Shown here: positions 33,738-60,950 of the stretch, in pieces | How the letters are laid out: each line of letters begins with the position of its first letter | Numbering within the stretch: the stretch's first letter is position 1 | IMG/VR virus record: IMGVR_UViG_3300002144_000477 | Location: 62,001-126,000 of that record | Reading direction: 5' to 3' (one strand) | From: a virus | DNA: 64,000 nucleotides | Position numbers and translations under genes: made by a program | Notes under the pieces: model-generated | The model's input: only the letters and a program-made list of their open reading frames with translations | Databases searched by the model: none | Told to the model about the DNA's origin: nothing

Positions 33738-33766
33738 AAAAAGCCACTTGCAAAAGTGGCTTTTTT
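33738..33766 (+). terminator. Rho-independent terminator ending the structural block
   Basis: AAAAAGCCACTT (33738-33749) pairs with AAGTGGCTTTTTT (33754-33766) around a GCAA loop, with a T-run on the distal side. The T and A runs on either side could let it work in both directions. It sits 27 nt after the last structural gene. Confidence 0.9.
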
Positions 33767-33776
33767 GTTATATAAT
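33748..33776 (+). promoter_or_regulatory. Sigma70-like promoter inside the terminator hairpin
   Basis: TTGCAA (33748-33753), a 17-base spacer and a perfect TATAAT (33771-33776). The -35 lies across the terminator loop. Expected initiation is about 33783, which is the ATG of the next gene, so the message may be leaderless. Confidence 0.6.
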
Positions 33777-33782: not shown

Positions 33783-34097
33783 ATGAGCGAAATTAATAAA
33801 CTAGTAGAACGTGTTAAGCTGGCTACAAAATACCAGGCTAACAAACGAACATTAAAAGAAACTATTACAGCCGAGCTACATTTACCATTCAATGGCGGAT
33901 TGTTTATGCTAAGTCCGGCATTGTTGGCATTTGTTAGCACTTGGCCAGACCCAACTCTATTCATCGAAGATGCATACGAGAACCCCATTGAAGTAAATCG
34001 CGACGAGTTTTTAGTAGTTGCGAGAGAACGATATCATGCGGCTATGAACAGCTGGAATCATCAAAGCCAGGAAATTAAACGTGCCAGGAAAGTCTAA
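33783..34097 (+). CDS. Conserved hypothetical protein, first gene of the accessory operon
   Basis: A 104-residue protein that I do not recognise. It starts with a basic, helix-forming segment (EINKLVERVKLATKYQANKR), followed by a hydrophobic stretch containing GGLFMLSPALLAFVSTW, and ends basic. A longer frame opens at 33756 within the terminator, but ATG 33783 lies where transcription from the TATAAT at 33771 should begin, so I choose it; there is no ribosome binding site. The next gene overlaps its end by 17 nt. The hydrophobic stretch is too short and mixed to claim a membrane segment. Confidence 0.6.
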   Translation: MSEINKLVERVKLATKYQANKRTLKETITAELHLPFNGGLFMLSPALLAFVSTWPDPTLFIEDAYENPIEVNRDEFLVVARERYHAAMNSWNHQSQEIKRARKV

Positions 34098-34845
34098 AGG
34101 CGTACTATTATTTGCGACAAATACAGCCGAAGTTGACTATGTTAGCATCGCTGAAACTAATGCAAAATTAATTGACAGATATCTCGGGTTGCCTACAACT
34201 ATTGTTCAGGGCGATGTTGGTACAAATAAACGCTTAGTAAGTGGCGCAGTAGTAGAGTGGAATAACGGTGGTAGATGCAATGCATACGAGTTAAGTCCGT
34301 ATGATCAAACGCTAGTACTCGACAGTGATTATTTAATCTTTGACAATAACTTACTAAAAGTATTAGATACTGTAGTTGATTATGCTATCCCAAACAAAAA
34401 TGTATACATTAATTCAGCAAACACCATTGACACTATGGGGCAATACAGTGTTGGACCAATGCTGTGGGCTACTGCAATTGCATTTAATCGCACTGAAAAG
34501 AGCAAGCAACTTTTTCAGCTAGTGAAAATGATACAGCATAATTACGGATACTATCGAGCACTATACAACATCTCCCCTGCAAACTTTAGAAATGATGTTG
34601 CATTTACTATTGCAGATCGAATTGTTAATGGCTATGTTGACAATATTGAAAATAGAATACCCTGGCCGGTTGTTACAGTGTCTGGAAAAGTTAGCAATCT
34701 TACATTAGATAACACTACTCGACGTATAATAGTATATACAGACACAGAGGCGTTTATTGTCCCTTGGAATAGTCTGCACCTACATGATAAAACAGTGTTG
34801 CAGTCTGATGATTTTAAAAAGGCAGTTGCACATGTCGTTGCGTAA
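34081..34845 (+). CDS. GT-A-like glycosyltransferase protein (DSD motif)
   Basis: A 254-residue protein. The opening GVLLFATNTAEVDYVSIAET is a Rossmann-like strand and helix, and YDQTLVLDSDYLIF at about 80-93 carries a DxD-type metal/nucleotide-sugar motif of GT-A enzymes, as in GT8-like families. It starts with GTG, supported by AGGA nine bases upstream. It is paralogous to the next gene: both begin with a GxxxFAxNTAxxDY pattern and have an aligned acidic motif. Its location ahead of a sugar and radical SAM gene group suggests surface or glycan modification (inference). Confidence 0.6.
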   Translation: MPGKSKGVLLFATNTAEVDYVSIAETNAKLIDRYLGLPTTIVQGDVGTNKRLVSGAVVEWNNGGRCNAYELSPYDQTLVLDSDYLIFDNNLLKVLDTVVDYAIPNKNVYINSANTIDTMGQYSVGPMLWATAIAFNRTEKSKQLFQLVKMIQHNYGYYRALYNISPANFRNDVAFTIADRIVNGYVDNIENRIPWPVVTVSGKVSNLTLDNTTRRIIVYTDTEAFIVPWNSLHLHDKTVLQSDDFKKAVAHVVA

Positions 34846-35698
34846 ACAAGCACATCAAGCCCAGCGAGGATTTATAACATTTGCTCAAAATACTGCGTCA
34901 ACTGATTACCTTGAGCTGTCTTATCTCCAAGCGCTAAATATAAAAGCAACACAGCCTAACAGTCTATACGCGGTTATAGTTGATGTTGCTACTGAATCTC
35001 AAATAACTCCAACTCAACGCAGTGCGTTCGACTACGTTATTACCCTAGAACACGATGAAGCAACTGACTCTGAATGGAAATTGTCCAATGAGTGGCAAGT
35101 GTTTTGGTTGACCCCGTTTAAAGAAACAATTAAATTAGAATCGGATCTACTGTTTACTCGCGATGTAAGCCATTGGTGGCCAGTGTTACAAACTCAAAAT
35201 CTTGTTATGAGCCATGGTGTAGTTGATCATCAAGGTAAGCCAGCAACTAGTAGGCGATATCGTAAACTGTTTGATGAAAATAGTTTACCCGACGTATACA
35301 ACGGTATGATGTATTTTCGATTTAGTGCCGAAGCAACAACGTTTTTCTCTACTGCTAGGCAAGTTTATGCAAATTGGGATGATATCAAAAATAGCGGACT
35401 AGTTAATGTTCGGGACGATAACCCTACTACTGATGTAGTGTATGCAATAACTGCAATTCTAGTAGATTTTCCAACATATATTCCGACGCTTGATTTTTTT
35501 AAGTTTGCACATTTGAAACCCGGAATTCAAAATTGGTCCGATGATAAGTCTGTGTTTAGCCGGGTGCTGTTAGAAACAGAGATTCCGCATATTAGAATTA
35601 ATAATGTCTTGCAATTAAATCCTGTGCATTATTATGATAAAACAATTAACATTAAGGAATTAATAAATGAATACGAGCAATTTACAAGACCCGCCTGA
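34832..35698 (+). CDS. GT-A-like protein, paralogue of the preceding gene (ESD motif)
   Basis: A 288-residue protein. GFITFAQNTASTDYLELSY aligns with the start of the preceding protein, and FKETIKLESDLLFTRD aligns with its LDSD motif but has ESD in place of DSD, so metal binding may differ. I choose ATG 34832, preceded by AAAAAGG; a frame open from 34757 adds 25 implausible residues inside the upstream gene. It overlaps the upstream gene by 14 nt. A substrate cannot be named. Confidence 0.55.
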   Translation: MSLRKQAHQAQRGFITFAQNTASTDYLELSYLQALNIKATQPNSLYAVIVDVATESQITPTQRSAFDYVITLEHDEATDSEWKLSNEWQVFWLTPFKETIKLESDLLFTRDVSHWWPVLQTQNLVMSHGVVDHQGKPATSRRYRKLFDENSLPDVYNGMMYFRFSAEATTFFSTARQVYANWDDIKNSGLVNVRDDNPTTDVVYAITAILVDFPTYIPTLDFFKFAHLKPGIQNWSDDKSVFSRVLLETEIPHIRINNVLQLNPVHYYDKTINIKELINEYEQFTRPA

Positions 35699-36044
35699 GC
35701 TAGTTACTGCAATGCAAGAGTTTTTTGCAGACAATCAACAACCTGCGGTTACATCAAAAATTGAATACCGTTTGTATTATGATGCTTTGGGCAAGGTACT
35801 GTTTATGACAACTAACGACGAGCCCGGCAAATACATTGTAATTTCAAAAGAAGTGTATAACAAACCAAATTACTCATCTATGCGTGTAGTAAATGGAGAG
35901 TTAAAAATTGTAAACTTTGATGATCCAGACTTTGCGTTAGATAAAGCAGCCACCGGATACCAAACGGTAAAAGGCCACGCAGGTATTTTAGCAGACGATC
36001 AAACAACAACTGAGACACAAACATATGGCTTCAAACATAACTGA
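35667..36044 (+). CDS. Small acidic conserved hypothetical protein
   Basis: A 125-residue protein without cysteines and without a recognisable domain. The middle (KIEYRLYYDALGKVLFMTT, then GKYIVISKEVYN) looks like a compact beta-rich fold. The C-terminus is flexible and Thr/Gln-rich. Start ATG 35667 has AAGGA nine bases upstream and overlaps the preceding gene by 32 nt; the following gene overlaps by 20 nt, so it is embedded in a coupled operon. I considered a peptide substrate for the downstream radical SAM enzymes, but it has no leader/core layout. Confidence 0.6.
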   Translation: MNTSNLQDPPELVTAMQEFFADNQQPAVTSKIEYRLYYDALGKVLFMTTNDEPGKYIVISKEVYNKPNYSSMRVVNGELKIVNFDDPDFALDKAATGYQTVKGHAGILADDQTTTETQTYGFKHN

Positions 36045-36936
36045 TGTTGCAGACCTTGACTGCATTTACTTAACTTACGATGAACCGCAGAAAGAAGAGT
36101 TTTGGATTAAAATCCAAAATATGGTTCCGTGGGCTAAACGAGTAGATGGAGTTAAAGGAAGCGATGCCGCACATAAGGCTGCGGCAGACGCAAGTGATAC
36201 CGAATTTTTTGTATTAATCGACGGCGACAATTTACCTGACCCGGAGTTTTTTAATTTACAAATTGAAACACCGGACCACGACTGTGCATTTCGGTGGAAA
36301 GCCCGCAATGAAATCAACGGTCTCATGTACGGCAATGGTGGTATGAGTGTGTGGAGTAAAGGCTTTGTGTACAATATGAAAACACATGAAGCTAGTGATG
36401 GCAGTGATGAAACTGCTGTTGAGTTCTGCTTCGAAGAAACATATTATCCTATGCATAACTGCTATTCAACTACATATCCAAATGGCGATCAATATCATGC
36501 ATGGCGTGCAGGATTCCGCGAAGGTGTTAAGATGTGCTTAGATAGAGGTCGTAAACCCACATTGCCGGAGTTCGACGATGCCGCCAAAAAACGTAACTTA
36601 GACCATTTACAAATTTGGCAAACAATTGGCAAAGACGTACAACACGGAGAGTGGGCAATTGCAGGCGCACGGTACGGCACGTACAAAACTATGCTAACCG
36701 ACTGGGACTACACCGAAGTTCAGGACTTTGATAAACTAAAAGAAATGTACGCAGAGTTTGACATAAACAATCTGCCTGCGATTACAGAAAAACTAACACA
36801 TCGGTTAGGACTTAATATTGTTGAACTAGATGCGGAGCAAAGTGCTTTCTTTAAGTATCATTATAGCACGGGACATAAAAATCTTGAGTTGATGACTAAA
36901 GAAATTGATGTCATTCGTAGAATTGAGGGATGGTAA
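36025..36936 (+). CDS. Glycosyltransferase-like protein with DGD motif
   Basis: A 303-residue protein. CIYLTYDEPQKEEFW opens a GT-A-like fold, and FFVLIDGDNLPDPEFF near 54-69 holds a canonical D-x-D. The middle contains NEINGLMYGNGG and a later EWAIAGARYGTYK segment. The C-terminal unit of the 872-residue protein at 50347 has the same order (YISNGEPDAERWYEH, NPVNGLEYGHQA, WSILGAKDAL) but lacks the DGD. This is thus the copy likeliest to be catalytic. It lies directly upstream of a membrane protein and the radical SAM cluster. Confidence 0.6.
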   Translation: MASNITDVADLDCIYLTYDEPQKEEFWIKIQNMVPWAKRVDGVKGSDAAHKAAADASDTEFFVLIDGDNLPDPEFFNLQIETPDHDCAFRWKARNEINGLMYGNGGMSVWSKGFVYNMKTHEASDGSDETAVEFCFEETYYPMHNCYSTTYPNGDQYHAWRAGFREGVKMCLDRGRKPTLPEFDDAAKKRNLDHLQIWQTIGKDVQHGEWAIAGARYGTYKTMLTDWDYTEVQDFDKLKEMYAEFDINNLPAITEKLTHRLGLNIVELDAEQSAFFKYHYSTGHKNLELMTKEIDVIRRIEGW

Positions 36937-36937
36937 T

Positions 36938-37225
36938 ATGATTAAACGTATTAAAGAGTTTTGGGTTAACAGTTACCACAGTGATAAAACAGCATTTTAT
37001 TACGAGCTTATTAGCTTTGTTATCACGGTAGCGGCAAGCCTGACATTAGCACTTACAGCAGACGACCCTGACATGACACTGGTTTATCCTGGGTTCTTCA
37101 TTGGCAGTGTATTTGCAGTTATTGCATATAAGCGTCGACAGCTAGTTTGGCCATTCCTATTGACATTATACTTTGCATGTGTTAATATATTTGGATACGG
37201 AGTAGCAATGAGATGGTGGAACTAA
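36938..37225 (+). CDS. Small integral membrane protein
   Basis: A 95-residue protein with about three hydrophobic segments: ELISFVITVAASLTLALTA, FFIGSVFAVIAY and VWPFLLTLYFACVNIFGYG. The amphipathic N-terminus and short loops fit a phage inner-membrane protein. ATG 36938 is preceded by GAGGGA; a frame opening at 36905 lies within the upstream coding region. Two bases separate its stop from the first radical SAM gene. Function unknown. Confidence 0.65.
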   Translation: MIKRIKEFWVNSYHSDKTAFYYELISFVITVAASLTLALTADDPDMTLVYPGFFIGSVFAVIAYKRRQLVWPFLLTLYFACVNIFGYGVAMRWWN

Positions 37226-37226: not shown

Positions 37227-38636
37227 ATGAACAAAGGCGACGAGTCAGTAGGTAACAAGAGTAAGTTTATGGCTTCGGCTGAGTTCATGAAAGAGAACTT
37301 AGGCGAAGGACTGTGTCTGGCTAAATGGAAACAGGTAAGCCTACATCTCCCCACTGGTCTAAACAATAGTTGCTACCATCCGCCATTGCATAAAATCGAC
37401 TCAGCAACACTAAAAGACAACCCGGGCGCACTACACAACACTGAGCATAAAAAGCAACAGCGTGTTATTATGCTTAAAAACGAACGGCCCAGTGAATGTA
37501 GTTACTGCTGGAATATCGAAGACACAGGCAACCTAAGTGATAGACATTATCGTAGTGGTGAGCCCTGGGCCGCTAGCGATTACGAAACTATTGTTAGCAG
37601 TAACGGAACTGAAGACGATGTTATTCCTAGTTATGTTGAAGTAAATTTTAACCATGCGTGTAACTTAAAGTGTAGCTATTGCAGTCCGCAGTTTAGTAGC
37701 AGTTGGATGGCCGAGACTGAGAAGTACGGTGCATTTCCGACTAGCGTACCGCACAACGCACCAGAGCACTTTGCCGGTAGCAGACGCCCTATTCCGCATA
37801 GAGAAGCCAACCCCTATGTTGATGCATTCTGGGAATGGTGGCCTAGTCTTTATCCTCACTTAAAACATTTTCGCATGACAGGCGGCGAGCCGTTAATGGA
37901 TAACAATACATATAGGGTGTTTGATTATGTATTGGCGTTGCCTAACCCTGAGTTGCACTTAAATGTTACAAGTAATTTCAGTGTCGAAGACAAACTTTTC
38001 GAAAAGTATCTAGGCTATGTTAAAAAGTTATGCAAAACTCAAATAGAGCATTTTATGCAATATGTGAGTTTAGACACTGGGGTACCTGCACATGCTGAGT
38101 ACATACGCAACGGGTTAAATTGGGATCGCATGTATCACAATGTTTACCGGTATATGAATGAAGTCCCAGAGCGCAACAGTTTAACATTTATTATCACTAT
38201 GAATAATTTAAGTGTTAGTGGTATCAAGCGCCAGCTAGAGTGGATTTTAGATTTGCGAAGTAGGTTTAGTCAAACATATCAACGTGTTTGGTTTGATACT
38301 CCATTGCTTCGCCAGCCAACATGGCAAAGTTTACAAATACTACCGTGGCCCTACGCCGATAAGCTAGAGGATGTTGCTAACTGGATGGAACAACATCTAG
38401 AAACCCCAGACGATCCGTTCCATGGGTTTAAGGATTATGAAGTACAGCGTATGCGCCGTGATATTGCATGGATGCGCAAAGGTGCTGAATTAGGTGCAGA
38501 TTATTTGCAAGCACAGCGAGCAGATTTTTATAGATTTTTTAACGAACACGATAAACGCCGTGGCACTGATTTCTTAGAAACATTTCCTGATATGGAAGAG
38601 TTTTGGAAAGAGTGTAGATACCACGCTAACAGATAA
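37227..38636 (+). CDS. Radical SAM protein 1 with N-terminal twitch-like cysteine domain
   Basis: A 469-residue protein. The radical SAM cluster motif is CNLKCSYC (Cys 145, 149, 152), followed by SSSW and later a TGGEPLMDN motif for SAM binding. Ahead of it, Cys 30, 49, 91 and 94 (GLCLAKW, NNSCYHP, CSYCW) form a twitch/SPASM-like auxiliary [4Fe-4S] site placed N-terminal to the barrel. This order matches the known N-twitch radical SAM family rather than the usual C-terminal SPASM. It forms a subgroup with the next protein. The substrate is unknown; the family is expected to modify a peptide, protein or sugar by 5'-deoxyadenosyl radical chemistry. Confidence 0.85.
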   Translation: MNKGDESVGNKSKFMASAEFMKENLGEGLCLAKWKQVSLHLPTGLNNSCYHPPLHKIDSATLKDNPGALHNTEHKKQQRVIMLKNERPSECSYCWNIEDTGNLSDRHYRSGEPWAASDYETIVSSNGTEDDVIPSYVEVNFNHACNLKCSYCSPQFSSSWMAETEKYGAFPTSVPHNAPEHFAGSRRPIPHREANPYVDAFWEWWPSLYPHLKHFRMTGGEPLMDNNTYRVFDYVLALPNPELHLNVTSNFSVEDKLFEKYLGYVKKLCKTQIEHFMQYVSLDTGVPAHAEYIRNGLNWDRMYHNVYRYMNEVPERNSLTFIITMNNLSVSGIKRQLEWILDLRSRFSQTYQRVWFDTPLLRQPTWQSLQILPWPYADKLEDVANWMEQHLETPDDPFHGFKDYEVQRMRRDIAWMRKGAELGADYLQAQRADFYRFFNEHDKRRGTDFLETFPDMEEFWKECRYHANR

Positions 38637-38646
38637 AGAGGACAAT

Positions 38647-40002
38647 ATGCCACGTAAAGATAACGAAACACATTTAGAATACAAACGCAGAGTTATTGAC
38701 ATTAAGTCAGATTCCTTCTGTGGGGCAAAATGGTACAATGCTACTATTTGGTTAGGCAGTGGTATGACTACCAGTTGCCATCATCCATTGCCTCACAAAG
38801 TAGACGTTGAGGACGTACTTAAGAACCCTAAGGCATTACATAATACTCAAAAGAAAAAGTTTGAGCGCGAGCAGATGCAAAAAGGCGAACGACCAAAAGG
38901 TTGCGAATACTGCTGGAAGATCGAAGACATTGGACGAGACAATATTAGCGACCGGGTTTACAAATCGGTAATTTACTCCGACGAGGATCTTGCCTATGCA
39001 GCCAGAATTCCGGCCAGCACCGATATTGATCTACAGACACTCGAAATCGCATTTGACCGTACCTGCCAGTTTGCATGTAGTTATTGCAATCCGGCATTTA
39101 GTAGTACATGGGTTAAAGATATTAAAAACAACGGACCGTACAATAATCTTGTAAGCGACGGGCGTAATCACTTTACTCACATTCACGATAGTGCTCAGTT
39201 ATACAAGTATGGTGACACAAATCCATACGTGGAAGCGTTTCACCAATGGTGGGAATCCGACCTGCATAAGACATTGCAAGAACTACGAATTACAGGTGGC
39301 GAGCCATTGATGACTGGCGGTACGTGGAAACTGATCGACTGGTTTAAAGCAAACAAAGGCAAAAGTACTACCCGTTTGGCAATCAACAGTAACTTGGGTG
39401 CTGATATTGATATTGATCGATTGATTTATAGTGTCGACGGTGTAGAAATTGACTTGTACACTAGTAATGAAGCAGTCGGCGCACAAGCAGAATACATACG
39501 AGATGGATTGGATTACACTGTTTGGATGCAGAACATGGTTAAACTAATCGAAAGTAAAAAGTTTAGAGGCATTCACGTAATGTGTACTATCAATGCCTTG
39601 TGCTTAGATAGCTTGCCAGAGTTTTTAGACCAATTAGTTGAATTGAAGAAACAGTACGGCAGAGATTATCCAAACTTTACCCTAAACATTTTGCGATTCC
39701 CTAGTTTCCAAAGTGCATTGGTGTTGTCCGACGAGCAACGAACGATATATAAGAATAAGCTAATTGGTTGGATGATGCATCATCGTGACACTGAGGTATT
39801 ACATGAACATGAACGCAATCACGTAACCAGGTTAATTGACTACTTGGATGTTGTTAAGACTCCGCATAGCGAAGCATTTGAAATGCCAAAGCTACACAAC
39901 GATTTTAAAAACTTTTATCAGCAGTACGACCAGCGTAGAAAAGATAAAGATTTTAATAAAACATTCCCTAACTTATCGGATTGGTATAATGGACTCAACT
40001 AA
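38647..40002 (+). CDS. Radical SAM protein 2 with N-terminal twitch-like cysteine domain
   Basis: A 451-residue paralogue of protein 1. The radical SAM cluster is CQFACSYC (Cys 140, 144, 147) and the SAM motif ITGGEPLMTG. The N-terminal auxiliary cysteines are 25, 44, 86 and 89 (FCGAKW, TSCHHP, GCEYCW). The closest relative in the window is protein 1: both have ALHNT and a C-terminal YDQRR or HDKRR followed by TFP. The ATG is preceded by GAGG. It overlaps the next gene by 14 nt. Confidence 0.85.
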   Translation: MPRKDNETHLEYKRRVIDIKSDSFCGAKWYNATIWLGSGMTTSCHHPLPHKVDVEDVLKNPKALHNTQKKKFEREQMQKGERPKGCEYCWKIEDIGRDNISDRVYKSVIYSDEDLAYAARIPASTDIDLQTLEIAFDRTCQFACSYCNPAFSSTWVKDIKNNGPYNNLVSDGRNHFTHIHDSAQLYKYGDTNPYVEAFHQWWESDLHKTLQELRITGGEPLMTGGTWKLIDWFKANKGKSTTRLAINSNLGADIDIDRLIYSVDGVEIDLYTSNEAVGAQAEYIRDGLDYTVWMQNMVKLIESKKFRGIHVMCTINALCLDSLPEFLDQLVELKKQYGRDYPNFTLNILRFPSFQSALVLSDEQRTIYKNKLIGWMMHHRDTEVLHEHERNHVTRLIDYLDVVKTPHSEAFEMPKLHNDFKNFYQQYDQRRKDKDFNKTFPNLSDWYNGLN

Positions 40003-41320
40003 AAAAGATTTCTACGAGAAGTACGATTATAATGAACGTTCTCCTCATTTTATTAAGCGTGAGGAATTAACCGATCAGCAATTTAACAGGTTAGTCAAAA
40101 GCGACAAGTTTTGTATGCTTCCTTGGGTACACATGCATGCATTTCCGGATGGCAGGGCATATCCATGTTGTTTAGGCGACTATTGGCATCCGGTTGGCGA
40201 TCTACGTAAGCACACAATGGAAGAAGTATGGAACCAGGACGCATATAAAACAATGCGTAAAAACATGCTTGAAGACAAGTCTTGTAAGGAATGCACTAAG
40301 TGCTACGAGCAAGAAGCCAATGGCTTTTTTAGTATGCGTAACGATGCGAATCGAAATTACGGACACTTGATTAACGAAGTAGATCAAACTGCTAGTGATG
40401 GCGAACATCCTGAGTTTAAATTGCGTTACTGGGATGTTCGATTTAGTAATATGTGTAACTTTAGATGCCGGTCGTGTGGCCCAATCTTTAGTAGCAATTG
40501 GTACAAGGATCATGTTAAACTATACGGTGTTAAGCCCGACGTGCTTAAGCGTGAAATGGCAGTAATCGAGTATACTACTGGCAATGAAGAAGACATGCTT
40601 AAACAGATGGAGCCGCACATCGAGCATTTAGAACAAGTCTACTTTGCTGGCGGCGAACCAATGATTATGAAAGAGCATTACTACTTACTCGAGCGCCTGA
40701 TTGATCTTGGCAAGACTGATGTGCGGTTAGTATATAATACTAACTTTAGCGAAATGCGATACAAAGATAAACACGTATTTGATTATTGGAAACATTTTAA
40801 AACTGTAAACGTTGGTGCAAGTCTTGATGGAATGGGATCACAAGGTGAGCTTATCCGCAAAGGACAAGATTGGGCACAAACAGAAGAAAACCGTATCCGT
40901 ATGAAAGAGGAAGTCCCGCACGTAGACTTCTATGTTAGTGCAACTGTTACTAGTCAGAACGTATTACATGTATTAGACTTTCATCGTGACTGGGTTGAAC
41001 GTGGCTTTATAAATCCACAAGACTTTAATGTTAATATATGTCAGAGCCCTGAATGGTATCGCATTGATATCTTTCCGGAGCAGTTTAAGCGTGAAGTAAT
41101 TGAACCTGCGTATCGCAAGCATATCGAGTGGTTGGACCCACAAGACAAGTTGCGTCGTGCTACAACAGGATTCGAAAGTGCTATTAATTTTATGATGAGC
41201 AACGACGGGTCCAAGTACTGGAACCGATTCGAGCACGAAATCAAACTACTCGATGATCTACGTAACGAAGACTTTTGGGCTACATTCCCTGAATTAGAGG
41301 CAGCACGTGGAAAACAATAA
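39989..41320 (+). CDS. Radical SAM protein 3 with N-terminal twitch-like cysteine domain
   Basis: A 443-residue protein. The N-terminal domain has FCMLPWVHMHAFPDG with CC at 60-61 and C-x2-C-x2-C at 99-105 (SCKECTKC), one cysteine more than its siblings. The radical SAM cluster is CNFRCRSC (156, 160, 163), then SSNW and FAGGEPMIM. The frame is open from 39836, but ATG 39989, overlapping the previous gene by 14 nt, gives the natural start. The CMLPW pattern groups it with proteins 4 and 5. Substrate unknown. Confidence 0.85.
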   Translation: MDSTKKDFYEKYDYNERSPHFIKREELTDQQFNRLVKSDKFCMLPWVHMHAFPDGRAYPCCLGDYWHPVGDLRKHTMEEVWNQDAYKTMRKNMLEDKSCKECTKCYEQEANGFFSMRNDANRNYGHLINEVDQTASDGEHPEFKLRYWDVRFSNMCNFRCRSCGPIFSSNWYKDHVKLYGVKPDVLKREMAVIEYTTGNEEDMLKQMEPHIEHLEQVYFAGGEPMIMKEHYYLLERLIDLGKTDVRLVYNTNFSEMRYKDKHVFDYWKHFKTVNVGASLDGMGSQGELIRKGQDWAQTEENRIRMKEEVPHVDFYVSATVTSQNVLHVLDFHRDWVERGFINPQDFNVNICQSPEWYRIDIFPEQFKREVIEPAYRKHIEWLDPQDKLRRATTGFESAINFMMSNDGSKYWNRFEHEIKLLDDLRNEDFWATFPELEAARGKQ

Positions 41321-42518
41321 CACAATTTGTATGTTGCCCTGGGTTAGCCTAGAAACTACTCCAATGGGCAATACTCGTCCCTGCTGTTTAGCAACTGAGG
41401 AAGTATTAAAACCCGACGGTACTAAGTTTAACTTAAATGTTGATACACTAGAAAGTATCTACAAAAGTGAATATATGGTAGACTTGCGCCAGCAGTTTAT
41501 AGATGGTAAGAAACCTAAAACATGCAACAGATGCTGGGATGAAGAAGATGCAGGTCGTACTAGTAAGCGTATGCACACTAACGTTCGCTTTAAACACGAG
41601 CGTCCGTTAATTGACTTTACCGACACAAAACCCGACAGTTTGTGGTTCATTGACTTAAAATTAGGCAACATTTGTAACCTCAAGTGCCGCATCTGCGGAT
41701 CATGGTCCAGTAGCAAGTGGGCACAAGAAGAAATGGATTACATTAAAGTATACGGCAAAGATCCTAAAAGTCATATTGCGTACCAGTGGTTAAAAGACGG
41801 ACGCTGGCCAAGAGATAGCGAAGTGTTCTGGGAAAACATGAGTCAATTGTTGCCTAACGTAAAGTATTTTGAGTTTACTGGCGGCGAGCCGTTTATGATT
41901 AAAGAGCACTTTGAACTATTGCAAGAAGCAGTGGATAGAGGTTTTGCTAGTCAAATTGAAATACATTATAATACCAATGGTACGCAGTATCCTGCGGAGT
42001 ATGTTGACCTATGGAAGAACTTTAAGTATGTTGAGATTGCATTTAGTATCGACAACGTAGGTGCCCGGTTTGAATACGAACGATACGGAGCAAAATGGGA
42101 CGAAGTAGAAGATAACATCGCTAAATTCAGACAGCTACGTAGTGAAACAAACAATATTAAATTGCAAATTTGTTTAACTGTTAATATTCAAAATGTATAC
42201 TACTTAGACGACCTATGCAACTGGGCGCTAACACAGGATTTTGACTACCACCATTTTAATATGTTGCACGATCCTAGACATCAGAATATCGGCACAATGA
42301 CACAGGATGCAAAAGATTTAGTAATTAATAAGTTAACCACTAGCGAGTTTACTCCTAAGCATCGAATTGAAATTGACAATATTATACAGTTTATTAAGAA
42401 TGGCCCAACTAGTGATGGCAAGCAGTTTGTTAAGCTAATGAAACAGACTGATGAGTATCGCAACCAGTCGTTTTTAGACTCGCATACTGACATAGCAAAG
42501 CCAATGGGGTATATTTAA
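41307..42518 (+). CDS. Radical SAM protein 4 with N-terminal twitch-like cysteine domain
   Basis: A 403-residue protein, the shortest of the five. The N-terminal auxiliary site starts at residue 8 (ICMLPWVSLETTPMGN, CC at 26-27, CNRCW at 73-77). The radical SAM cluster is CNLKCRIC (123, 127, 130), the SAM motif FTGGEPFMIK. It starts with GTG at 41307, supported by AGAGG six bases upstream and a 14-nt overlap with protein 3. The auxiliary site begins almost at the N-terminus, so no upstream domain is missing. Confidence 0.85.
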   Translation: MENNNTICMLPWVSLETTPMGNTRPCCLATEEVLKPDGTKFNLNVDTLESIYKSEYMVDLRQQFIDGKKPKTCNRCWDEEDAGRTSKRMHTNVRFKHERPLIDFTDTKPDSLWFIDLKLGNICNLKCRICGSWSSSKWAQEEMDYIKVYGKDPKSHIAYQWLKDGRWPRDSEVFWENMSQLLPNVKYFEFTGGEPFMIKEHFELLQEAVDRGFASQIEIHYNTNGTQYPAEYVDLWKNFKYVEIAFSIDNVGARFEYERYGAKWDEVEDNIAKFRQLRSETNNIKLQICLTVNIQNVYYLDDLCNWALTQDFDYHHFNMLHDPRHQNIGTMTQDAKDLVINKLTTSEFTPKHRIEIDNIIQFIKNGPTSDGKQFVKLMKQTDEYRNQSFLDSHTDIAKPMGYI

Positions 42519-42526
42519 TTTTTAAT

Positions 42527-43825
42527 ATGACTAAACCAGATAAGAAACCCGATACATTGTGCATGGCACCGTGGACACACACTTACTTAAGCCCGCAAAC
42601 GGAACGTAGAATGTGCTGTGCTAGCCGTGAACCAGCACAAAATTTTGAGCAATACATTGACACTAAAGCTGGTACTGGAACATATATTCCGTTGACTCTT
42701 GAAGAGCACTGGAACGGTGACCACATGAAGTCGGTGCGTAAACGTATGATGGCAGGAGAAACACTACCTGAGTGTGAAGTATGTAATGATAAACTTTTGA
42801 ATACGTCGGTATACCGGAGCTATTTTGGACACTTATTCAATCATAAATACGATAGCATATGGGAAACAACAGATGTCACTGGCTTTACAACTATGGAGCC
42901 AGTGAGCTGGGATTATCGGTTTAGTAACCTGTGCAACTTTAAGTGCAGAATGTGTGGCGATATGTTGTCTAGCGCATGGGAAAGCGAGCAACGTAAACAC
43001 AATATGATTAATTGGCACGATCCAAAAAACAGTTGGATGCGCCCTGAAATCAAGAAGCAAATCGAAACGTTCCAAACAACACAGATTGAAGAAGAGTTTG
43101 CGAAAGCAGTGGAAGAGCATCGAATTGAGGAAGTGTACTGGGTTGGCGGCGAACCATTGATGTATGAACAGCACTGGCGGTATATGCAACGTATCATTGA
43201 ATTAGGAGACGGACCAAATGTTTATGCTAGATACAACACAAACCTTAGTCGCATTGATTATCGCGGTGTTAATCTTTATTCTGATATTTTGGCTAGGATA
43301 CGTGACTGGCAAGTCTGTGCAAGCATTGATGGTACAGGAAGAATTGGAGAATATATTCGAACAGGTCTTAATTTTGACAACTGGCTTGAAAACTTCAGTA
43401 AGGGAGTTGAGATCAGCAAGCATTCGCGCCAAGTTCGTATTGACTTCACTCTTACACTACCGGGATTATTTGAGGTCCTCGAAATTCAAAGATTGGGAAA
43501 ACGACTCGGAGTAGACATACTTGCAAAAGTAGTGTTCAGTTTTAGTCCCGACATTATTATGTCGCCGCTAGCATTACCTAAGGAGGTATTGCACCCTATG
43601 TTAGACAGTTTGATTGCAGAGACCAGTGGCGAAATGCAGGCTATATTAAAGCAACTTAAACTACGCCCTACCTTTGCAGAACAGTGGCCGGACACCTACG
43701 AAGCCGGACTTCGCAAAGGAAAAGAGCGAGTACTACGATTAGAGCAAATACGTAAAGATACTTTTACGTTTGCTGATATTATTAGTGATAATATTGATAT
43801 TAAAAAATGGTGGGATAATATATGA
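42527..43825 (+). CDS. Radical SAM protein 5 with N-terminal twitch-like cysteine domain
   Basis: A 432-residue protein. Auxiliary cysteines: LCMAPWTHTYLSP (C12), CC at 30-31, CEVC at 83-86. The radical SAM cluster is CNFKCRMC (136, 140, 143), followed by SSAW and WVGGEPLMYE. The late segment contains FSFSPDIIMSPLALP, absent from the other four, so its substrate pocket may differ. The ATG lacks a clear ribosome binding site, eight bases after the previous stop. Its stop overlaps the next start as ATGA. Confidence 0.85.
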   Translation: MTKPDKKPDTLCMAPWTHTYLSPQTERRMCCASREPAQNFEQYIDTKAGTGTYIPLTLEEHWNGDHMKSVRKRMMAGETLPECEVCNDKLLNTSVYRSYFGHLFNHKYDSIWETTDVTGFTTMEPVSWDYRFSNLCNFKCRMCGDMLSSAWESEQRKHNMINWHDPKNSWMRPEIKKQIETFQTTQIEEEFAKAVEEHRIEEVYWVGGEPLMYEQHWRYMQRIIELGDGPNVYARYNTNLSRIDYRGVNLYSDILARIRDWQVCASIDGTGRIGEYIRTGLNFDNWLENFSKGVEISKHSRQVRIDFTLTLPGLFEVLEIQRLGKRLGVDILAKVVFSFSPDIIMSPLALPKEVLHPMLDSLIAETSGEMQAILKQLKLRPTFAEQWPDTYEAGLRKGKERVLRLEQIRKDTFTFADIISDNIDIKKWWDNI

Positions 43826-44019: not shown

Positions 44020-45087
44020 ATGAACAAAGTAAAAGTAGTTCTAGCAGATCCGTTAAACTCTACTAGAACAATAGACTACACCATTGAAGTTGCAGACCAT
44101 ACTATGGCTAATAATTGGTATGGGGCACTGAATAACCTACTAAGCAGGAACGCCTACTTAGAGAAAAACTTTTGCTTTATGGGTTTCCCGAACACTGCTC
44201 GAGATTTGTCTTACTTGTGTAACGAGCTTAAGTGGGCAACTGACACTATTAATAACTTCTTTGACGACTATAAAATCAATGAAGTTTATACACCGGATAC
44301 TCTACGCAATGGCCTAGAACCAAATCAGGATATCATGAATAAACTTCATAATCATTTTGAAGTTCTTCAGGGCACGGTGTGGGGACTAAGTGAATATTAC
44401 AAACGAGCAGACTACCAAACAAAATTTGCTATTAGGCAACTTAACAACATCTGCCACGAAGCAGAAAGTTTAATGTTAAGTCAAAAGAAGCAAGTAGAAG
44501 CACCGCAATGGATGCGCCCGAGCCAAATTACTACTTTTTTAAATGCACCGCGCTATGAGTATCCTGCAGAGTTTAAGCGCACATTTGACAAAAGCCGGTA
44601 CGATAGGACATTCGGCACAGTGTATCAACACTGGACTCAAATTGGGAAAACACTATACGAAGTGTTTATCGACGAAAACGGTAAAGACATAGATCAAGCT
44701 GAGTGCGAAGCAATTACACATTTGCGATACTACTCGGGTGAGTTTGATATCGAATGGAGCAGAGATATTACATATTCTGGAGATTATCCTTGGCACAAAA
44801 CACGAATGGACGAGTTCGAAGAATGGCTCTTGCGTAATCGATTTGATCTAACGGATACTGAGTACAATTTCGGTTACCACGATGTAGCACAAGTGAACTT
44901 ACTTGAAAGTTTTGGTACAACTGAACCAGAAGCAGTATGGGATATTCTCGGCAAGCATTTAAATATTGTTCGAATTGAAACACAGCAAACATCATGTGAC
45001 TTTAAGTACTCGTGGGCAGATGCAGACTACAAACAACAACAAATCGACATGCTGAAACCCGGATATGATTACAGTAGCAGGCGGTGA
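44020..45087 (+). CDS. Conserved hypothetical protein, 355 residues
   Basis: I do not recognise the family. The protein is soluble, mixed alpha/beta, rich in Trp, Tyr and His. Landmarks: TMANNWYGALNNLLSRNAYL near 28-47, a WMRPSQITTFLNAPR segment near 164-178, and FNPWP-free acidic stretches such as EFDIEWSRDITYSGDYPWH near 240-258. No signal peptide, membrane segment or nucleotide-binding motif is visible. It lies between a small membrane protein and the first SGNH-like gene, whose start overlaps its end by 23 nt, so it belongs to the operon. Confidence 0.6.
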   Translation: MNKVKVVLADPLNSTRTIDYTIEVADHTMANNWYGALNNLLSRNAYLEKNFCFMGFPNTARDLSYLCNELKWATDTINNFFDDYKINEVYTPDTLRNGLEPNQDIMNKLHNHFEVLQGTVWGLSEYYKRADYQTKFAIRQLNNICHEAESLMLSQKKQVEAPQWMRPSQITTFLNAPRYEYPAEFKRTFDKSRYDRTFGTVYQHWTQIGKTLYEVFIDENGKDIDQAECEAITHLRYYSGEFDIEWSRDITYSGDYPWHKTRMDEFEEWLLRNRFDLTDTEYNFGYHDVAQVNLLESFGTTEPEAVWDILGKHLNIVRIETQQTSCDFKYSWADADYKQQQIDMLKPGYDYSSRR

Positions 45088-45853
45088 TAGTTTTGTCTAC
45101 GGTAGCGAATTAGCAGACTGTAACAACACACCAAGCAACAACACATTTACAGCATTGCTAGCGCAAGAGCATACCTATCACTGTGCCGCGTATCCAGGAA
45201 ACAGTAACGAAGCCATTGCTAGGCAAACCGTTAATGCTTGTCACCGATACAATCCAGATCGTGTTATAGTCAGTTGGACATTTCCTGGCAGGTATGAATT
45301 TAGATTTGGTTACAATACTGGACAACGTTTAAGTCCATGGTATAGTATTAACAGTTGGACCGTTGAACAAAATGTTTCTGCAATTGAACAAGAGTTCATT
45401 ACCAAAGACGAGCATATTCTCAAAGCACAAATCGACACAATAGAACGTGCAAAGAAAACAGGTGTTGCAGATTTTGCAAGAACTTTTTACCAACACGTGG
45501 GGTCCACTGAATACTGGGAAGTGTATAGTAGCCTTAAAGAAATTGTATACCTCCAAAACTATTTAAAATCGAGAAACATTGCTTATTTGTTCACGCTAGC
45601 AGATTATTCTATATTTGACAATTACACAATACAACATTGCGATGCTACTATTGCAAGTTTAGTCGACTCAATTGATATGTCACGATTTTACTTTTTCCCG
45701 CCCGGAACACAAAACGGTGAAACAACCACACACAGAGGTTTCTACCAGTGGGCATTGGAAAATAAATACAAAGTGGGCACAACGCATCCACTAGAGGAAG
45801 CGCACTACGCCGCTTACTTATTATTACAGGACTACTTCAATGCAATGGATTAA
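45065..45853 (+). CDS. SGNH/GDSL-like hydrolase-fold protein 1
   Basis: A 262-residue protein. The start VAGGDSFVYGSELAD carries a GDSF block I with a candidate nucleophile Ser. PGNSNEAIARQ resembles the block III Gly/Asn region. The end has THPLEEAHYAAYLL, comparable to the block V His. Such enzymes hydrolyse or transfer acyl or acetyl esters on sugars and lipids. The same landmarks are in the gene at 45938, so the two are diverged paralogues. Enzyme activity is inferred; the WTFPGRYEF segment is not a classical motif. Confidence 0.6.
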   Translation: MITVAGGDSFVYGSELADCNNTPSNNTFTALLAQEHTYHCAAYPGNSNEAIARQTVNACHRYNPDRVIVSWTFPGRYEFRFGYNTGQRLSPWYSINSWTVEQNVSAIEQEFITKDEHILKAQIDTIERAKKTGVADFARTFYQHVGSTEYWEVYSSLKEIVYLQNYLKSRNIAYLFTLADYSIFDNYTIQHCDATIASLVDSIDMSRFYFFPPGTQNGETTTHRGFYQWALENKYKVGTTHPLEEAHYAAYLLLQDYFNAMD

Positions 45854-45941
45854 AAACATAATCAATCGAATCAAACTCGAAATTCAATATCGTAAGAAAC
45901 TAAAAGAGTTAAGAAAACGTGATCCTTTTATTTACAAATGA
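45840..45941 (+). CDS. Very small basic protein (33 residues)
   Basis: A 33-residue ORF, MQWIKNII then RIKLEIQYRKKLKELRKRDP and FIYK, overlaps the preceding gene by 14 nt and the following gene by an ATGA. The peptide is an amphipathic basic helix with a DPFIY end; I recall similar short peptides with that ending in aquatic myoviruses. The tight overlap at both ends and filling of the exact gap between the SGNH-like genes argue for a real gene. Confidence 0.6.
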   Translation: MQWIKNIINRIKLEIQYRKKLKELRKRDPFIYK

Positions 45942-46639
45942 CACGTAGACGAATTCTTACAGTAGGTGATAGTTTTACATTCGGGGAAGAACTCCCTGAC
46001 AGAGAACAGCATGCATTCCCTTATCTATTACGAGATTACCTCGGAGTCAACGAAGTAATAAATTTAGGGTTAAGCGGTGCAAGTTCTGACTATGTGTTCC
46101 GCACCACAATCGAAACATTAATCTCGGATCCTGATCCATTTGATTTAGTGCTAGTCTGCTGGCCAGAACAGAGTCGGTTTGAAGCAATACACAACCATCC
46201 ATCGTTTGTTCCAACTGAAAGTGCGCCTCATATTAAACCAATGGCGTGTTTGATACGCAAGCCAGGTAAAGCAACCCCCGGTTACGAACCAAAATGGGTG
46301 CAAGAGTATTACAAATACAGTTACGATACAGCATGGGGCTACCGTAAACAATTTAATCAAATGATTGCATTGCAAGCATTTTTAAAACAGCGTAAACAAC
46401 CGTATGCTATGTATAATGTAGCAGGACTACAGGGCGAGTACGGTAGATACAAAGTTTTTTTACAACATCAGTTTGCCGGGATAGATAGCAACAACTTTAT
46501 AGGATGGCCACTGGATGGATTATTAGAATGGCAAGGGGACTGCGTTAAAGCGCCAGGCGGACACCCTTTAGAATTAGGGCATCAACGAATAGCAAAGGTT
46601 ATCTATGAACATATTAGGAATAGCGGCTGGTTTTCATGA
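45938..46639 (+). CDS. SGNH/GDSL-like hydrolase-fold protein 2
   Basis: A 233-residue protein. LTVGDSFTFGEELPD holds block I GDSF, NLGLSGASSDYVF the Gly-rich region, LVLVCWPEQSRFE a middle block, and GGHPLELGHQRIAKVI the C-terminal His region. It matches the gene at 45065 in order and spacing of these blocks. The ATG overlaps the 33-residue gene stop. A role in trimming or adding acyl groups on surface glycans would fit the neighbouring carbamoyltransferase and glycosyltransferases (inference). Confidence 0.65.
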   Translation: MTRRRILTVGDSFTFGEELPDREQHAFPYLLRDYLGVNEVINLGLSGASSDYVFRTTIETLISDPDPFDLVLVCWPEQSRFEAIHNHPSFVPTESAPHIKPMACLIRKPGKATPGYEPKWVQEYYKYSYDTAWGYRKQFNQMIALQAFLKQRKQPYAMYNVAGLQGEYGRYKVFLQHQFAGIDSNNFIGWPLDGLLEWQGDCVKAPGGHPLELGHQRIAKVIYEHIRNSGWFS

Positions 46640-48104
46640 CGCCGCAGTCACGTTAATTAACGATCAGGGCGATATCCTGTTTGCAAGCTCAAGCGAAAGA
46701 TACAGCGGAATAAAAAACGATCCTAAGTTAGCAAGAGATATGCTAGCTGAAATTGATCTCTCGGAAGTACACAACGTTGCGTATTACGAAAACCCGCTGC
46801 AAAAGCAATTACGACAATTGTACGCAGGTCAATGTGTAGAGTTAAACAAACTAACTACTCGGCAGGTCCTTCGCTCAGTTGGATATCCTGCTAAAACCGG
46901 TTTGTTTGGCACTAGGTGTAACGTAAAGTCGTATCCTCATCATATGAGCCATGCTGCTGCCGGGTTTCAAACTAGCCCGTACGATGACGCTACGGTGTTA
47001 GTAGTGGATGCAATCGGTGAATGGAATACCGCAACTATATGGGATGCCCGGTACGATAGCGAGGGCAAAGCAGTATACAAAAAGTTATGGAGCCAATCGT
47101 ATCCGCATAGTATCGGATTATTCTACAGTGCATTTACTAAGCACATCAATCTTAAACCTCTAGACGAAGAATACATTTTCATGGGCATGGCAGCGTGGGG
47201 AGAAAATCGCTGGTTTGATCGTATCTATACTGACTTCATTGAGAATTCGAGCGAATTAACATTTAAGAAAAATTTACATATTGGTATAGATCCAAATTAC
47301 TTACCCGACGCTCTTAATGTTGATATTGCCGCTAGTGTGCAAAGCATCACGGAACATCTATTAGATCGATTAGTAAATAAAGCAAAGCACATGAATACAA
47401 GTAAGAATCTTGTATTCATGGGGGGAGTCGCATTAAATTGTGTTGCCAATGCAAACATCGGAGCGCATTACGAGAATATTTGGATTATGCCAAATCCGGG
47501 CGATGCCGGTAGTAGCTTAGGTGCCGCCGCACTGATGTACGGAAAAAAACTGAACTGGGATGGGCCATTTCTTGGTTATAATATTCCGGGCGAGTACCCA
47601 GTTAACCAAATGGTTGATCAGCTATTAGCAAATCAAATCGTTGGAGTTGCTACTGGTCGCGCAGAGTTTGGGCCTAGAGCGTTAGGACACCGCAGTCTGC
47701 TTGCTGATCCACGCGGCTCAGAAATTAAAGATAGAGTAAACGAAATTAAACGTCGACAAAAGTTTAGACCATTTGCTCCAATGATTTTAGAAGAAATGGC
47801 AGACCAATATTTTAACATGCCGAAAAATTGGAAAGCCAGCCCATATATGCAAACTGTTGCAGTAGTTAAAGACCCATCACAGTTTCCAGCTATATGCCAT
47901 ATCGACAATACTGCACGAGTACAAACAGTAGGCCGTGAACCTCAGTTTGCTGGAGTAAGAGAACTACTCGAAAAATGGTTCGTGTTAACTGGATGCCCGA
48001 TGCTGCTAAATACTTCGCTTAATATCAGGGGAGAGCCCATGGTTAATACTCGCTCGGATGCTGATAGATTCGAGGATCAATACGGTATAACAGTAATATC
48101 ATGA
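46605..48104 (+). CDS. Carbamoyltransferase, NodU/CmcH family
   Basis: A 499-residue enzyme predicted to transfer carbamoyl from carbamoyl phosphate to a hydroxyl, commonly on a sugar, through a carbamoyl-AMP intermediate. Family signatures are in order: ILGIAAGFHDAAVTLI at the start, HHMSHAAAGF near 105, FMGMAAWGEN, VFMGGVALNCVAN, EFGPRALGHRSLLADPR, FRPFAPMILEE and LNTSLNIRGEP. The last blocks form the YrdC-unlike C-terminal domain of TobZ-type enzymes. It is somewhat shorter than usual NodU proteins (about 560-600). The ATG has AAAGG six bases upstream and overlaps the previous gene by 35 nt. Confidence 0.85.
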   Translation: MNILGIAAGFHDAAVTLINDQGDILFASSSERYSGIKNDPKLARDMLAEIDLSEVHNVAYYENPLQKQLRQLYAGQCVELNKLTTRQVLRSVGYPAKTGLFGTRCNVKSYPHHMSHAAAGFQTSPYDDATVLVVDAIGEWNTATIWDARYDSEGKAVYKKLWSQSYPHSIGLFYSAFTKHINLKPLDEEYIFMGMAAWGENRWFDRIYTDFIENSSELTFKKNLHIGIDPNYLPDALNVDIAASVQSITEHLLDRLVNKAKHMNTSKNLVFMGGVALNCVANANIGAHYENIWIMPNPGDAGSSLGAAALMYGKKLNWDGPFLGYNIPGEYPVNQMVDQLLANQIVGVATGRAEFGPRALGHRSLLADPRGSEIKDRVNEIKRRQKFRPFAPMILEEMADQYFNMPKNWKASPYMQTVAVVKDPSQFPAICHIDNTARVQTVGREPQFAGVRELLEKWFVLTGCPMLLNTSLNIRGEPMVNTRSDADRFEDQYGITVIS

Positions 48105-49146: not shown

Positions 49147-49262
49147 TTTTAGATTTAGCAGTAGGTATCGCACATTCACTATTTTGGTTCGCAGTAGTAA
49201 TGCTAGAGCTGTTTGTTATTATACAAACATTGAAGTGGTTAACAGGCGATAAGTTAAACTAG
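49143..49262 (+). CDS. Very small membrane protein (39 residues)
   Basis: A 39-residue ORF starting in an ATGA overlap with the nucleotidyltransferase stop. It is largely one hydrophobic helix (LAVGIAHSLFWFAVVMLELF) followed by a short polar end. It closes the plus-strand accessory operon, and its last 9 nt overlap the end of the convergent glycosyltransferase-like gene. Function unknown. Confidence 0.5.
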   Translation: MILDLAVGIAHSLFWFAVVMLELFVIIQTLKWLTGDKLN

Positions 49263-50348
49263 TAAATTATCTGTAAGCTCTTGCCATGCGCTGTCTAGGA
49301 ACGAAGATTGCTCAAACCATTTACGGTTATGAGTCAGCACTGGTTCCATTTGTTTAAGTAGTACTTCTAACTCGCTATTGCTACGAACACATAATTTAGC
49401 AATAGCATCATTTAATACTAGTATACGCTGTATTGGATCTTCAATGTCATCGTAGCTTTCGTCAATCCAGTCACTGAATGTTAAAAATCCATACGACCGT
49501 AGATACTTTAGGCTGTGTGCAGGACCTAATAACACAAATGGCATTTCACTAATTATAGGCTTAAACACTTTTTCAGTTAAGTGCTCTTTGCTACTCCAGA
49601 ATTCAGTTTCAGTGACAACAAACAGAAACGATTCCATGCATTGATCCACTGCACTTAATACCATACTGCCGTTTGGTATATGGTCCGACGAACTAGTATC
49701 AACTCGCAGTTCGGGTAACCCAGCAAGCTCATCGATTGCCCATTGTAGGTCTAGACCCTTTGTGCGTTCTGCCCATTGTAGTTGTTCAATATTGTTACCG
49801 TGCTCTGGACAGTCAACACTATAGCTAACGTGTCCTTGTTCTAATAGATTTCGACGCTTTAAGTCAGCTACTGCAATACTACGATAGCACCTTGCATTTC
49901 CAGTAATTCGGTTAAAGCTAATAAACTTTTTGTTGACTTTACGGTCGGATGGCTGTATAATATGAGGACTGTACCGGTAGCCACGGAACCAGTCGTGTGC
50001 GGCAAATATATGGTAGAAATAGTAACAATCGTCGAACTGGAATTTGTCTAAAAAATATTTTTTAGACTCACTCTGGCGTTCGGTGTTAAGTAGTATTATG
50101 CGCCTGTTGTCTGTACCAAAAGTGTTTTTAACATGGTTAAACAGTGCATCGTTGTACCCAGGTATAAGCGGTTCTTGATCATAACAAAACAATACTGGTC
50201 CTTCATCGTCGCCACCGGAGTTTAACATTTCTAGACTGTCGATACTGCTTGCACCAAAAGGAAAAGGATAAATGACCATAACCCCATTGGGCCACTTGTT
50301 GCAGGCCATGCGGAAAATGTTTTCATAATGCGAATGGATATTATACAT
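49254..50348 (-). CDS. Glycosyltransferase-like protein
   Basis: A 364-residue protein. The clearest block is at about 258-300: EHLTEKVFKPIISEMPFVLLG then LKYLRSYGFLTFSDWIDESY, the donor-domain pattern of exostosin/GT10-like glycosyltransferases, where TEKVFKP contacts the nucleotide sugar. The N-terminal half has FCYDQEPLIPGYNDALF and KKFISFNRITGNARCYR. The convergent small gene overlaps its 3' end by 9 nt, and its start codon shares bases with the divergent gene at 50347. A possible TATAAATA late element lies inside that divergent gene. The acceptor is unknown. Confidence 0.6.
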   Translation of the reverse strand: MYNIHSHYENIFRMACNKWPNGVMVIYPFPFGASSIDSLEMLNSGGDDEGPVLFCYDQEPLIPGYNDALFNHVKNTFGTDNRRIILLNTERQSESKKYFLDKFQFDDCYYFYHIFAAHDWFRGYRYSPHIIQPSDRKVNKKFISFNRITGNARCYRSIAVADLKRRNLLEQGHVSYSVDCPEHGNNIEQLQWAERTKGLDLQWAIDELAGLPELRVDTSSSDHIPNGSMVLSAVDQCMESFLFVVTETEFWSSKEHLTEKVFKPIISEMPFVLLGPAHSLKYLRSYGFLTFSDWIDESYDDIEDPIQRILVLNDAIAKLCVRSNSELEVLLKQMEPVLTHNRKWFEQSSFLDSAWQELTDNLLV

Positions 50349-55063: not shown

Positions 55064-55383
55064 TTTCTGTTTCCCCATTTTAGTTCGTGAAATGTGTAAT
55101 TGACGTCTTCAAGCTCGCCGACAATGGCTATAGTATAGCTATAATTATACGAGTCAACGTCGGTGTAAAAAGTTATCTCTCCAATGGCATTTTCCATGCA
55201 CCATTTACCGTGCTCGGACTGTTGCCATTCGTAAATTGGGCCGGCAGCATACAATACCGGATCTTCGCAATCGCCAATTGAAAATTTATGCATTATGAGC
55301 TTTCGTGTTAACCCATTGGCAAGTTTTGGCATTTGGCGATGACTCCAAATCTTAGACGGCCATTGGTGCTTTAATTGTGCCAT
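55060..55383 (-). CDS. Small conserved phage protein of unknown function
   Basis: A 107-residue protein. The recognisable part is MHKFSIGDCEDPVLYAAGPI onward, with YEWQQSEHGKW, a pattern I have seen in small hypothetical proteins of aquatic T4-like phages. The end is beta-rich (YTIAIVGELEDVNYTFHELK). Three start codons are possible: 55383 (AGGA upstream, overlapping the thymidylate synthase gene by 32 nt), 55332 (GGAG upstream) and 55293 (start of the conserved part). I list the longest, with the N-terminus uncertain. Confidence 0.55.
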   Translation of the reverse strand: MAQLKHQWPSKIWSHRQMPKLANGLTRKLIMHKFSIGDCEDPVLYAAGPIYEWQQSEHGKWCMENAIGEITFYTDVDSYNYSYTIAIVGELEDVNYTFHELKWGNRK

Positions 55384-60921: not shown

Positions 60922-60950
60922 GGGCTTCTCCTTTTGTACAGTATTTAACT

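Follow-up and report, generated by a model that had tools for sequence, protein, structure and literature searches.

Radical S-adenosylmethionine (SAM) genes of marine viruses mostly enter gene lists as auxiliary metabolic genes to which no function is assigned. A stretch of 64,000 nucleotides, here called the window (positions 62,001 to 126,000 of the IMG/VR virus record IMGVR_UViG_3300002144_000477), carries five consecutive radical SAM genes, R1 to R5, and this raises the question of whether such a block is the oddity of one phage or a functional unit, and on what substrate it would act. The window belongs to a 170,893-bp virus contig of a T4-like phage; the assignment is based on the late sigma factor, the hub lysozyme and a baseplate wedge protein, which show 34-37% identity to their counterparts in jumbo phages, e.g. 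Atu_ph07. From the analyses described here we conclude that R1 to R5 are five distinct, conserved enzymes of the N-twitch family in a fixed order, and that a large, uncultured group of T4-like phages shares the block as a core cassette.

The original prediction, made from the letters alone, had placed five radical SAM open reading frames (ORFs) of the N-twitch type at 37227-43825, and five plus-strand ORFs are indeed found there. When searched with the family model NF033640, whose curated cut-off is 170 bits, all five proteins matched over nearly the full model with 277 to 395 bits, each above the cut-off. The sequence motifs that had been noticed are present in every copy, i.e. CxxxCxxC, GGEP, an SSxW-type segment (FSSSW, FSSTW, FSSNW, SSSKW and LSSAW, from R1 to R5) and at least four extra cysteines N-terminal to the core motif (4, 4, 6, 5 and 5, respectively); in R3, R4 and R5 the N-terminus is also recognised by the Pfam model SPASM (PF13186). 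The start of R3 is most likely the ATG at 39989, the longer ORF listed for this gene opening at an upstream TTG. The genes are separated by a 10-bp gap, two overlaps of 14 nt and a gap of 8 bp, a packing too tight for a precursor ORF to fit in between. The block is not the whole N-twitch set of this contig, since seven genes exceed the NF033640 cut-off, two of them outside the block, and two more give weak matches. Elsewhere on the contig a further N-twitch gene adjoins a radical SAM gene that gave no twitch match (L009, 14431-16792, minus strand), and a divergent N-twitch gene adjoins a redoxin gene (L010, 12372-14277, minus strand).

The five proteins share only 20-32% pairwise identity, and a tree built from 104 sequences places each of them, with the orthologues of other phages, in a separate supported clade; this was a quick tree, with long branches among the extra copies. 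For each gene the ratio of nonsynonymous to synonymous substitution rates (dN/dS), estimated in one close pair of loci (L012-L014), is 0.04-0.07. The related loci were taken from two IMG/VR scans, in each of which the best 80 of at least 590 relatives were kept, so that the counts given in this work describe a sample biased to close relatives. All five orthologues are present in 65 of the 91 non-duplicate viral loci; the order R1-R2-R3-R4-R5 was found in 49 of the 91, the order R1-R2-R3-R5-R4 in six, and a natural fusion of R3 and R4 in four. Chance is excluded as the source of the five-copy block, and the expansion in a single phage that the original prediction implied gives way to a recurrent cassette once tandem copies are counted in the relatives. 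The block is thus widespread, and no previous characterisation of it was found. The proposal that the diverged copies catalyse sequential or substrate-specific steps gains from the five non-redundant clades; sequential action would be a further assumption, and separate substrates fit equally well.

Among cultured phages, megablast gave no match, and neither did tblastn with R1, F4, F5, F6 or F8 (neighbouring genes, see Table 1); tblastn with R3 retrieved four records at 23-25% identity. The number of N-twitch matches per related viral record ranges from 5 to 21 (25 records), and is 6 in Vibrio phage K566. A scan of genome contigs with R3 alone returned nothing, and matches were obtained with an alignment as the query. 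Several contigs filed under bacterial or metagenome-assembled genomes bear the phage cassette (L039-L043, L099, L102) and are probably misbinned phage.

The cysteines expected to bind the iron-sulfur (Fe-S) clusters are strongly conserved. Those of CxxxCxxC are invariant in 91 orthologues (16-20 per gene), and four auxiliary N-terminal cysteines, with the pattern C-x17/18-C ... C-x2-C, are invariant across the orthologues of R1 to R5 except in one of the 20 R2 sequences, which lacks three of the four; the R2 set includes one sequence cut at its 5' end by the contig end. This conservation in every copy supports the auxiliary cluster site that had been predicted. The motif reported for SPASM/twitch domains with one cluster is CX9-15GX4C followed by CX2C (PMC6231123); it fits R1 to R4, and R5 has the four cysteines without the glycine. 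The four cysteines are arranged like the first half of the SPASM motif. The second auxiliary ligand lies in a C-H or C-Y-H context in R1 and R2, and in C-C in R3 to R5. The four-ligand set appears closer to that of BtrN than to that of MoaA; the auxiliary cluster is fully ligated in BtrN and has an open iron site in MoaA (PMC9012708). The structure of R3 was predicted with confidence (predicted local distance difference test, pLDDT, 94.7), and its Foldseek matches are radical SAM barrels of many functions, including anSME and sactisynthases. A sequence search for an N-twitch relative with a solved structure found none.

The block has constant neighbours (Table 1): F6, F3, F4, F9 and F5 upstream, and F8, the SGNH genes, F10, F14 and F12 downstream. 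The linkage of F5 to the N-twitch genes is obligate, as they accompany it in every one of the 75 loci that extend 1.5 kb or more downstream of F5; F3 or F4 lies upstream of F5 in 79 of 79 loci with room upstream. The glycosyltransferase-like, SGNH-like and carbamoyltransferase genes that had been noted around the block correspond to F3-F5 and F14, F11/F15 and F10. F3, F4 and F5 are likely glycosyltransferases (GTs): one aspartate is invariant across the three families (51 sequences), and their profile aligns its DxD with that of a GT8 protein (P 0.0022, but with an hhalign probability of 13%). The GT8 model gave no match in the contig; nor did the GT10 model, a negative that says little because this model was silent in all control genomes too. 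For F14 a GT-B fold is predicted by a confident model whose top matches in the PDB are GT-B enzymes, with probabilities up to 0.99 but E values near 1e-3 and TM-scores of 0.3-0.4; F14 paralogues sit between R1 and R2 or between R4 and R5 in many phages. Other genes inserted into the block in relatives, mostly single cases, encode an FkbM methyltransferase, a Stf0 sulfotransferase and a UDP-glucose dehydrogenase. In close relatives (L012-L015) a small gene of the Fe-S assembly family PF01883 lies just before R1. The family was detected in each of the five records searched, as would suit a set of Fe-S enzymes; this gene is absent from the window, where a short leader-like sequence may be its remnant.

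Table 1. Window coordinates of the radical SAM block, its control signals and its neighbours.
Feature	Coordinates	Strand	Remarks
Intrinsic terminator between last tail-fibre gene F7 and cassette	33738..33765	+	12-bp stem and T-run
Sigma-70-like promoter TTGCAA-17-TATAAT	33748..33776	+	Ends 6 nt before F6 ATG; overlaps terminator
F6, small conserved protein, first cassette gene	33783..34097	+	
F3, GT-A-like protein (DxD)	34081..34845	+	No Pfam match in window protein
F4, GT-A-like protein	34832..35698	+	No Pfam match in window protein
F9, small conserved protein	35667..36044	+	
F5, GT-A-like protein, invariant DGDN	36025..36936	+	N-twitch neighbours in 75/75 loci
F27, predicted membrane protein, confined to close relatives	36938..37225	+	Hydrophobic by eye
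R1, N-twitch radical SAM	37227..38636	+	NF033640 E 7e-93, 311.8 bits; own clade
R2, N-twitch radical SAM	38647..40002	+	NF033640 E 2.3e-82, 277.2 bits; own clade
R3, N-twitch radical SAM	39989..41320	+	NF033640 E 4e-118, 395.0 bits; model pLDDT 94.7; fused to R4 in some relatives
R4, N-twitch radical SAM	41307..42518	+	NF033640 E 6.5e-109, 364.6 bits; own clade
R5, N-twitch radical SAM	42527..43825	+	NF033640 E 1.9e-87, 294.0 bits; own clade
F8, conserved protein, function not assigned	44020..45087	+	In 52/65 full loci
F11, weak SGNH/GDSL-like protein	45065..45853	+	Pfam E 0.02, below cut-off
F15, SGNH/GDSL-like protein	45938..46639	+	DUF6071 over cut-off
F10, NodU-type O-carbamoyltransferase	46605..48104	+	Pfam E 8e-51 and 2e-39; PDB relatives
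F14, GT-B-fold protein	49254..50348	-	Model pLDDT 89.5; Foldseek TarM, SdgB, WaaG
F12, conserved protein, function not assigned	50347..52965	+	
DegT/DnrJ-type sugar aminotransferase, possibly associated	52972..54138	-	PF01041 E 2e-73
NAD-dependent nucleotide-sugar epimerase/dehydratase, possibly associated	54053..55078	-	PF01370 E 5e-40

With a probability of roughly 0.55, we propose that the block is the enzymatic core of a cassette whose target is a surface glycan or the sugar precursor of such a glycan, modified by stepwise radical chemistry. This reading is suggested by the GT-like genes found throughout, by the DegT and epimerase genes downstream and by the carbamoyltransferase F10, present in 47 of the 65 full loci, as well as by the FkbM, Stf0 and UDP-glucose dehydrogenase insertions, by the interleaving of N-twitch-like and GT genes in phage K566 and by the neighbours of bacterial N-twitch genes. 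Of 126 such neighbours, 10 are GDSL/SGNH and five are carbamoyltransferase genes, counts that stand without a background count. Two Bacteroidetes loci (L053, L086) look like polysaccharide loci: downstream of the N-twitch gene they encode a carbamoyltransferase, small membrane proteins and GT-like proteins, then an epimerase and the beginning of a nucleotide-sugar dehydrogenase, and in L086 an ABC-2 permease, matched by coordinates, lies close by. These genes were named by eye, apart from those for the carbamoyltransferase and the epimerase, which were recognised by the models of F10 and F16, respectively. Also in favour of the reading are the five clades, the kept order, purifying selection and the R3-R4 fusion, the BtrN-like set of four auxiliary cysteines, the constant linkage of F5 to the N-twitch genes and to F3/F4, the GT-B-like F14 among the R genes of relatives, and the promoter signal.

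The glycan substrate, the type of reaction, its timing and its biological role are what we infer from this setting. F3, F4, F5 and F14 would assemble or attach sugars. R1 to R5 would act as five distinct radical SAM enzymes, in which the core [4Fe-4S] cluster would cleave SAM, the 5'-deoxyadenosyl radical would abstract hydrogen at one specific carbon, and the electron left over would pass to the four-cysteine auxiliary cluster of the N-terminal twitch domain, a route that has been proposed for BtrN, an aminocyclitol dehydrogenase; the net outcome would be an oxidation or an epimerisation. The carbamoyltransferase and the SGNH proteins may add or remove O-carbamoyl or O-acyl groups, and the role of the product would be host-surface remodelling, such as receptor masking or serotype change.

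Several points weigh against a glycan substrate. We know of no N-twitch enzyme with a known substrate, and the substrates of twitch/SPASM enzymes include peptides, nucleotides, lipids and cyclitols, a range that the Foldseek matches of the R3 model also span. Pfam searches of 89 proteins of the F3-F5 family yielded one GT2 and one Nucleotid_trans match, and the cassette has no evident gene for a flippase, a polymerase or an exporter. TPR-fused arrays of bacterial N-twitch genes suggest protein binding in some members, and the position of the cassette behind the tail-fibre genes is compatible with a virion-protein target too. Many tandem TPR/N-twitch fusions of 600-1100 aa were observed in one Elusimicrobia bin (L054, L056, L057, L060, L062, L063, L065, L067, L069, L105).

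The next best explanation, which we regard as considerably less probable, is that the cassette modifies virion proteins, namely F6/F9 or the products of the adjacent upstream tail-fibre or adhesin genes, and so changes their stability or receptor specificity. The cassette lies directly behind the tail-fibre genes F13/F7 in most loci, peptide or protein modification is common among SPASM/twitch enzymes, the predicted structure of R3 matches anSME and sactisynthases, and some bacterial members are fused to TPR/Sel1 repeats. In contrast, a recognition domain such as the RRE was not detected, some bacterial members are found in polysaccharide loci without phage tails, and the cassette has a promoter-like signal of its own, with a terminator between cassette and tail genes. 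These two signals are conserved at the start of the cassette: hairpins occur in the F7-F6 gap of most relatives inspected, and a sigma-70-like promoter scoring at least 9 of 12 precedes 74% of 113 F6 genes versus 9.5% of 1204 other genes (Mann-Whitney p 2e-39, with relatedness ignored and the F6 start chosen by protein length). In most of the cases listed, 5-7 nt separate the end of the -10 box from the F6 ATG, which predicts a leaderless mRNA. The T4 late promoter TATAAATA occurs below chance. The sequence GATAAATA is not enriched as such (5 matches versus 3.6 expected); four of the five matches (window 1512, 9579, 29635, 31183) lie 37-41 nt before structural ORFs and it is absent from the cassette, and it is possibly a late promoter variant of this phage. 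With a promoter-like signal of its own behind a terminator, the cassette probably has an expression separate from that of the late tail genes and is probably more than the end of their operon; this predicted separate expression fits host-surface remodelling somewhat better than the decoration of virions.

An improbable alternative is DNA hypermodification, in which the radical SAM enzymes, the glycosyltransferases and the carbamoyltransferase would decorate modified bases and thereby evade host nucleases. T4-like phages glucosylate their DNA, and phage carbamoyltransferases can carbamoylate 5-hydroxymethylcytosine (PMC8670742); however, the carbamoyltransferases of unmodified contigs were GT-flanked, and the thymidylate-synthase homologues of modified-cytosine contigs mostly have Asp177 (PMC8670742). 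The only PF00303 protein of our contig, which may be incomplete, has His147 and Asn177 as in a canonical thymidylate synthase, and these residues disfavour the hypermodification of DNA. The gene for this canonical thymidylate synthase adjoins a dihydrofolate reductase gene at window 55352-56741 on the minus strand.

Less probable still is the maturation of a ribosomally synthesised and post-translationally modified peptide (RiPP), in which R1 to R5 would act on a small precursor: modification of peptides is a frequent role of SPASM/twitch radical SAM enzymes, but the five genes leave no space for one between them, and a small ORF conserved with the block was not found, in agreement with the earlier remark that no RiPP-like precursor is evident. 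That the five are recent redundant duplicates, retained for dosage or by chance, is very improbable, for although extra N-twitch copies are common in related viral records, each gene has its own clade across divergent phages, and the low mutual identity, the dN/dS values of the close pair and the kept gene order all argue against it.

To place the cassette among known systems, R1 to R5 are members of the NF033640 family, whose model names no function, and the ordered block of five orthologues with its partner genes lies outside the family description consulted. The T4-like marine virus genome TARA_ERS488813_N000010 is reported to have 12 radical SAM genes together with Fe-S assembly genes (PMC5332604). 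By description, the likeness is that a single T4-like genome holds a large number of radical SAM genes; the Fe-S assembly genes have a parallel in the PF01883 gene that relatives studied here have in their cassette. The passage on these genes mentions neither their order nor a split into families nor a role, and our contig gave no match to an Fe-S A-type carrier. Pelagimyophages are reported to carry radical SAM cassettes in a GT-rich host-recognition region, the GTs being read as agents of surface alteration (PMC7029224). Again by description, these cassettes share with ours the radical SAM genes beside tail fibres and glycosyltransferases, but they are variable, whereas here a fixed-order core is found in what is apparently a different phage group. 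With BtrN, from butirosin biosynthesis, the cassette enzymes would share the four-cysteine auxiliary cluster and, by analogy, a two-electron oxidation of a sugar-like substrate; the twitch domain is C-terminal in BtrN and N-terminal in R1 to R5, and no close sequence similarity of R1 to R5 to solved radical SAM enzymes was found.

The isolated Vibrio phages K566/K567 have a related cluster, which in K566 (L038, OZ196521, 10506-21474) consists of four N-twitch-like genes with two GT8 genes and one GT4-like gene placed among them. It differs from the cassette in its order and in the identity of its N-twitch proteins to R3 (about 23%); two of the four are below the NF033640 cut-off and none is an assigned R1-R5 orthologue. 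In K566 the cluster is followed by a gene annotated as PagP. A search of the open-access literature gave no account of the five-gene block in its fixed order, of the genes that go with it, of its promoter or of what it does, and queries on virion protein glycosylation and on multiple phage radical SAM genes returned nothing. The suggestion that the expansion is undescribed is therefore to be narrowed: an abundance of radical SAM genes in such phages had already been noted (PMC5332604, PMC7029224), and it is the ordered cassette for which no description was found. The enzyme family and the general setting are known; what appears to be new is the conserved ordered cassette.

The radical SAM genes of this phage are then not loose cargo, being five distinct enzymes whose order is kept across a large phage group together with a constant partner gene. 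The cassette offers a minimal gene set that can be expressed, a fusion that marks a partner pair and conserved neighbours that narrow the substrate, and the isolated Vibrio phage with a related cluster is a route to genetics. To our knowledge, a reaction found for R1 to R5 would be the first known function of the N-twitch family. A more specific form of the glycan proposal, which we offer as tentative, is a radical assembly line: R1 to R5 would act sequentially on a single glycan or glycolipid built by the dedicated glycosyltransferases, R3 and R4 forming a physical pair, and would yield a sugar structure not known from cells that would remodel the host surface in infection.

Two further features of the window may be mentioned. 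A single ORF of 4382 aa lies between the baseplate wedge and tail-fibre genes (13008-26156, plus strand), and a gene for a DUF2201/VWA protein adjoins one for a MoxR-like AAA ATPase (59659-62175, minus strand).

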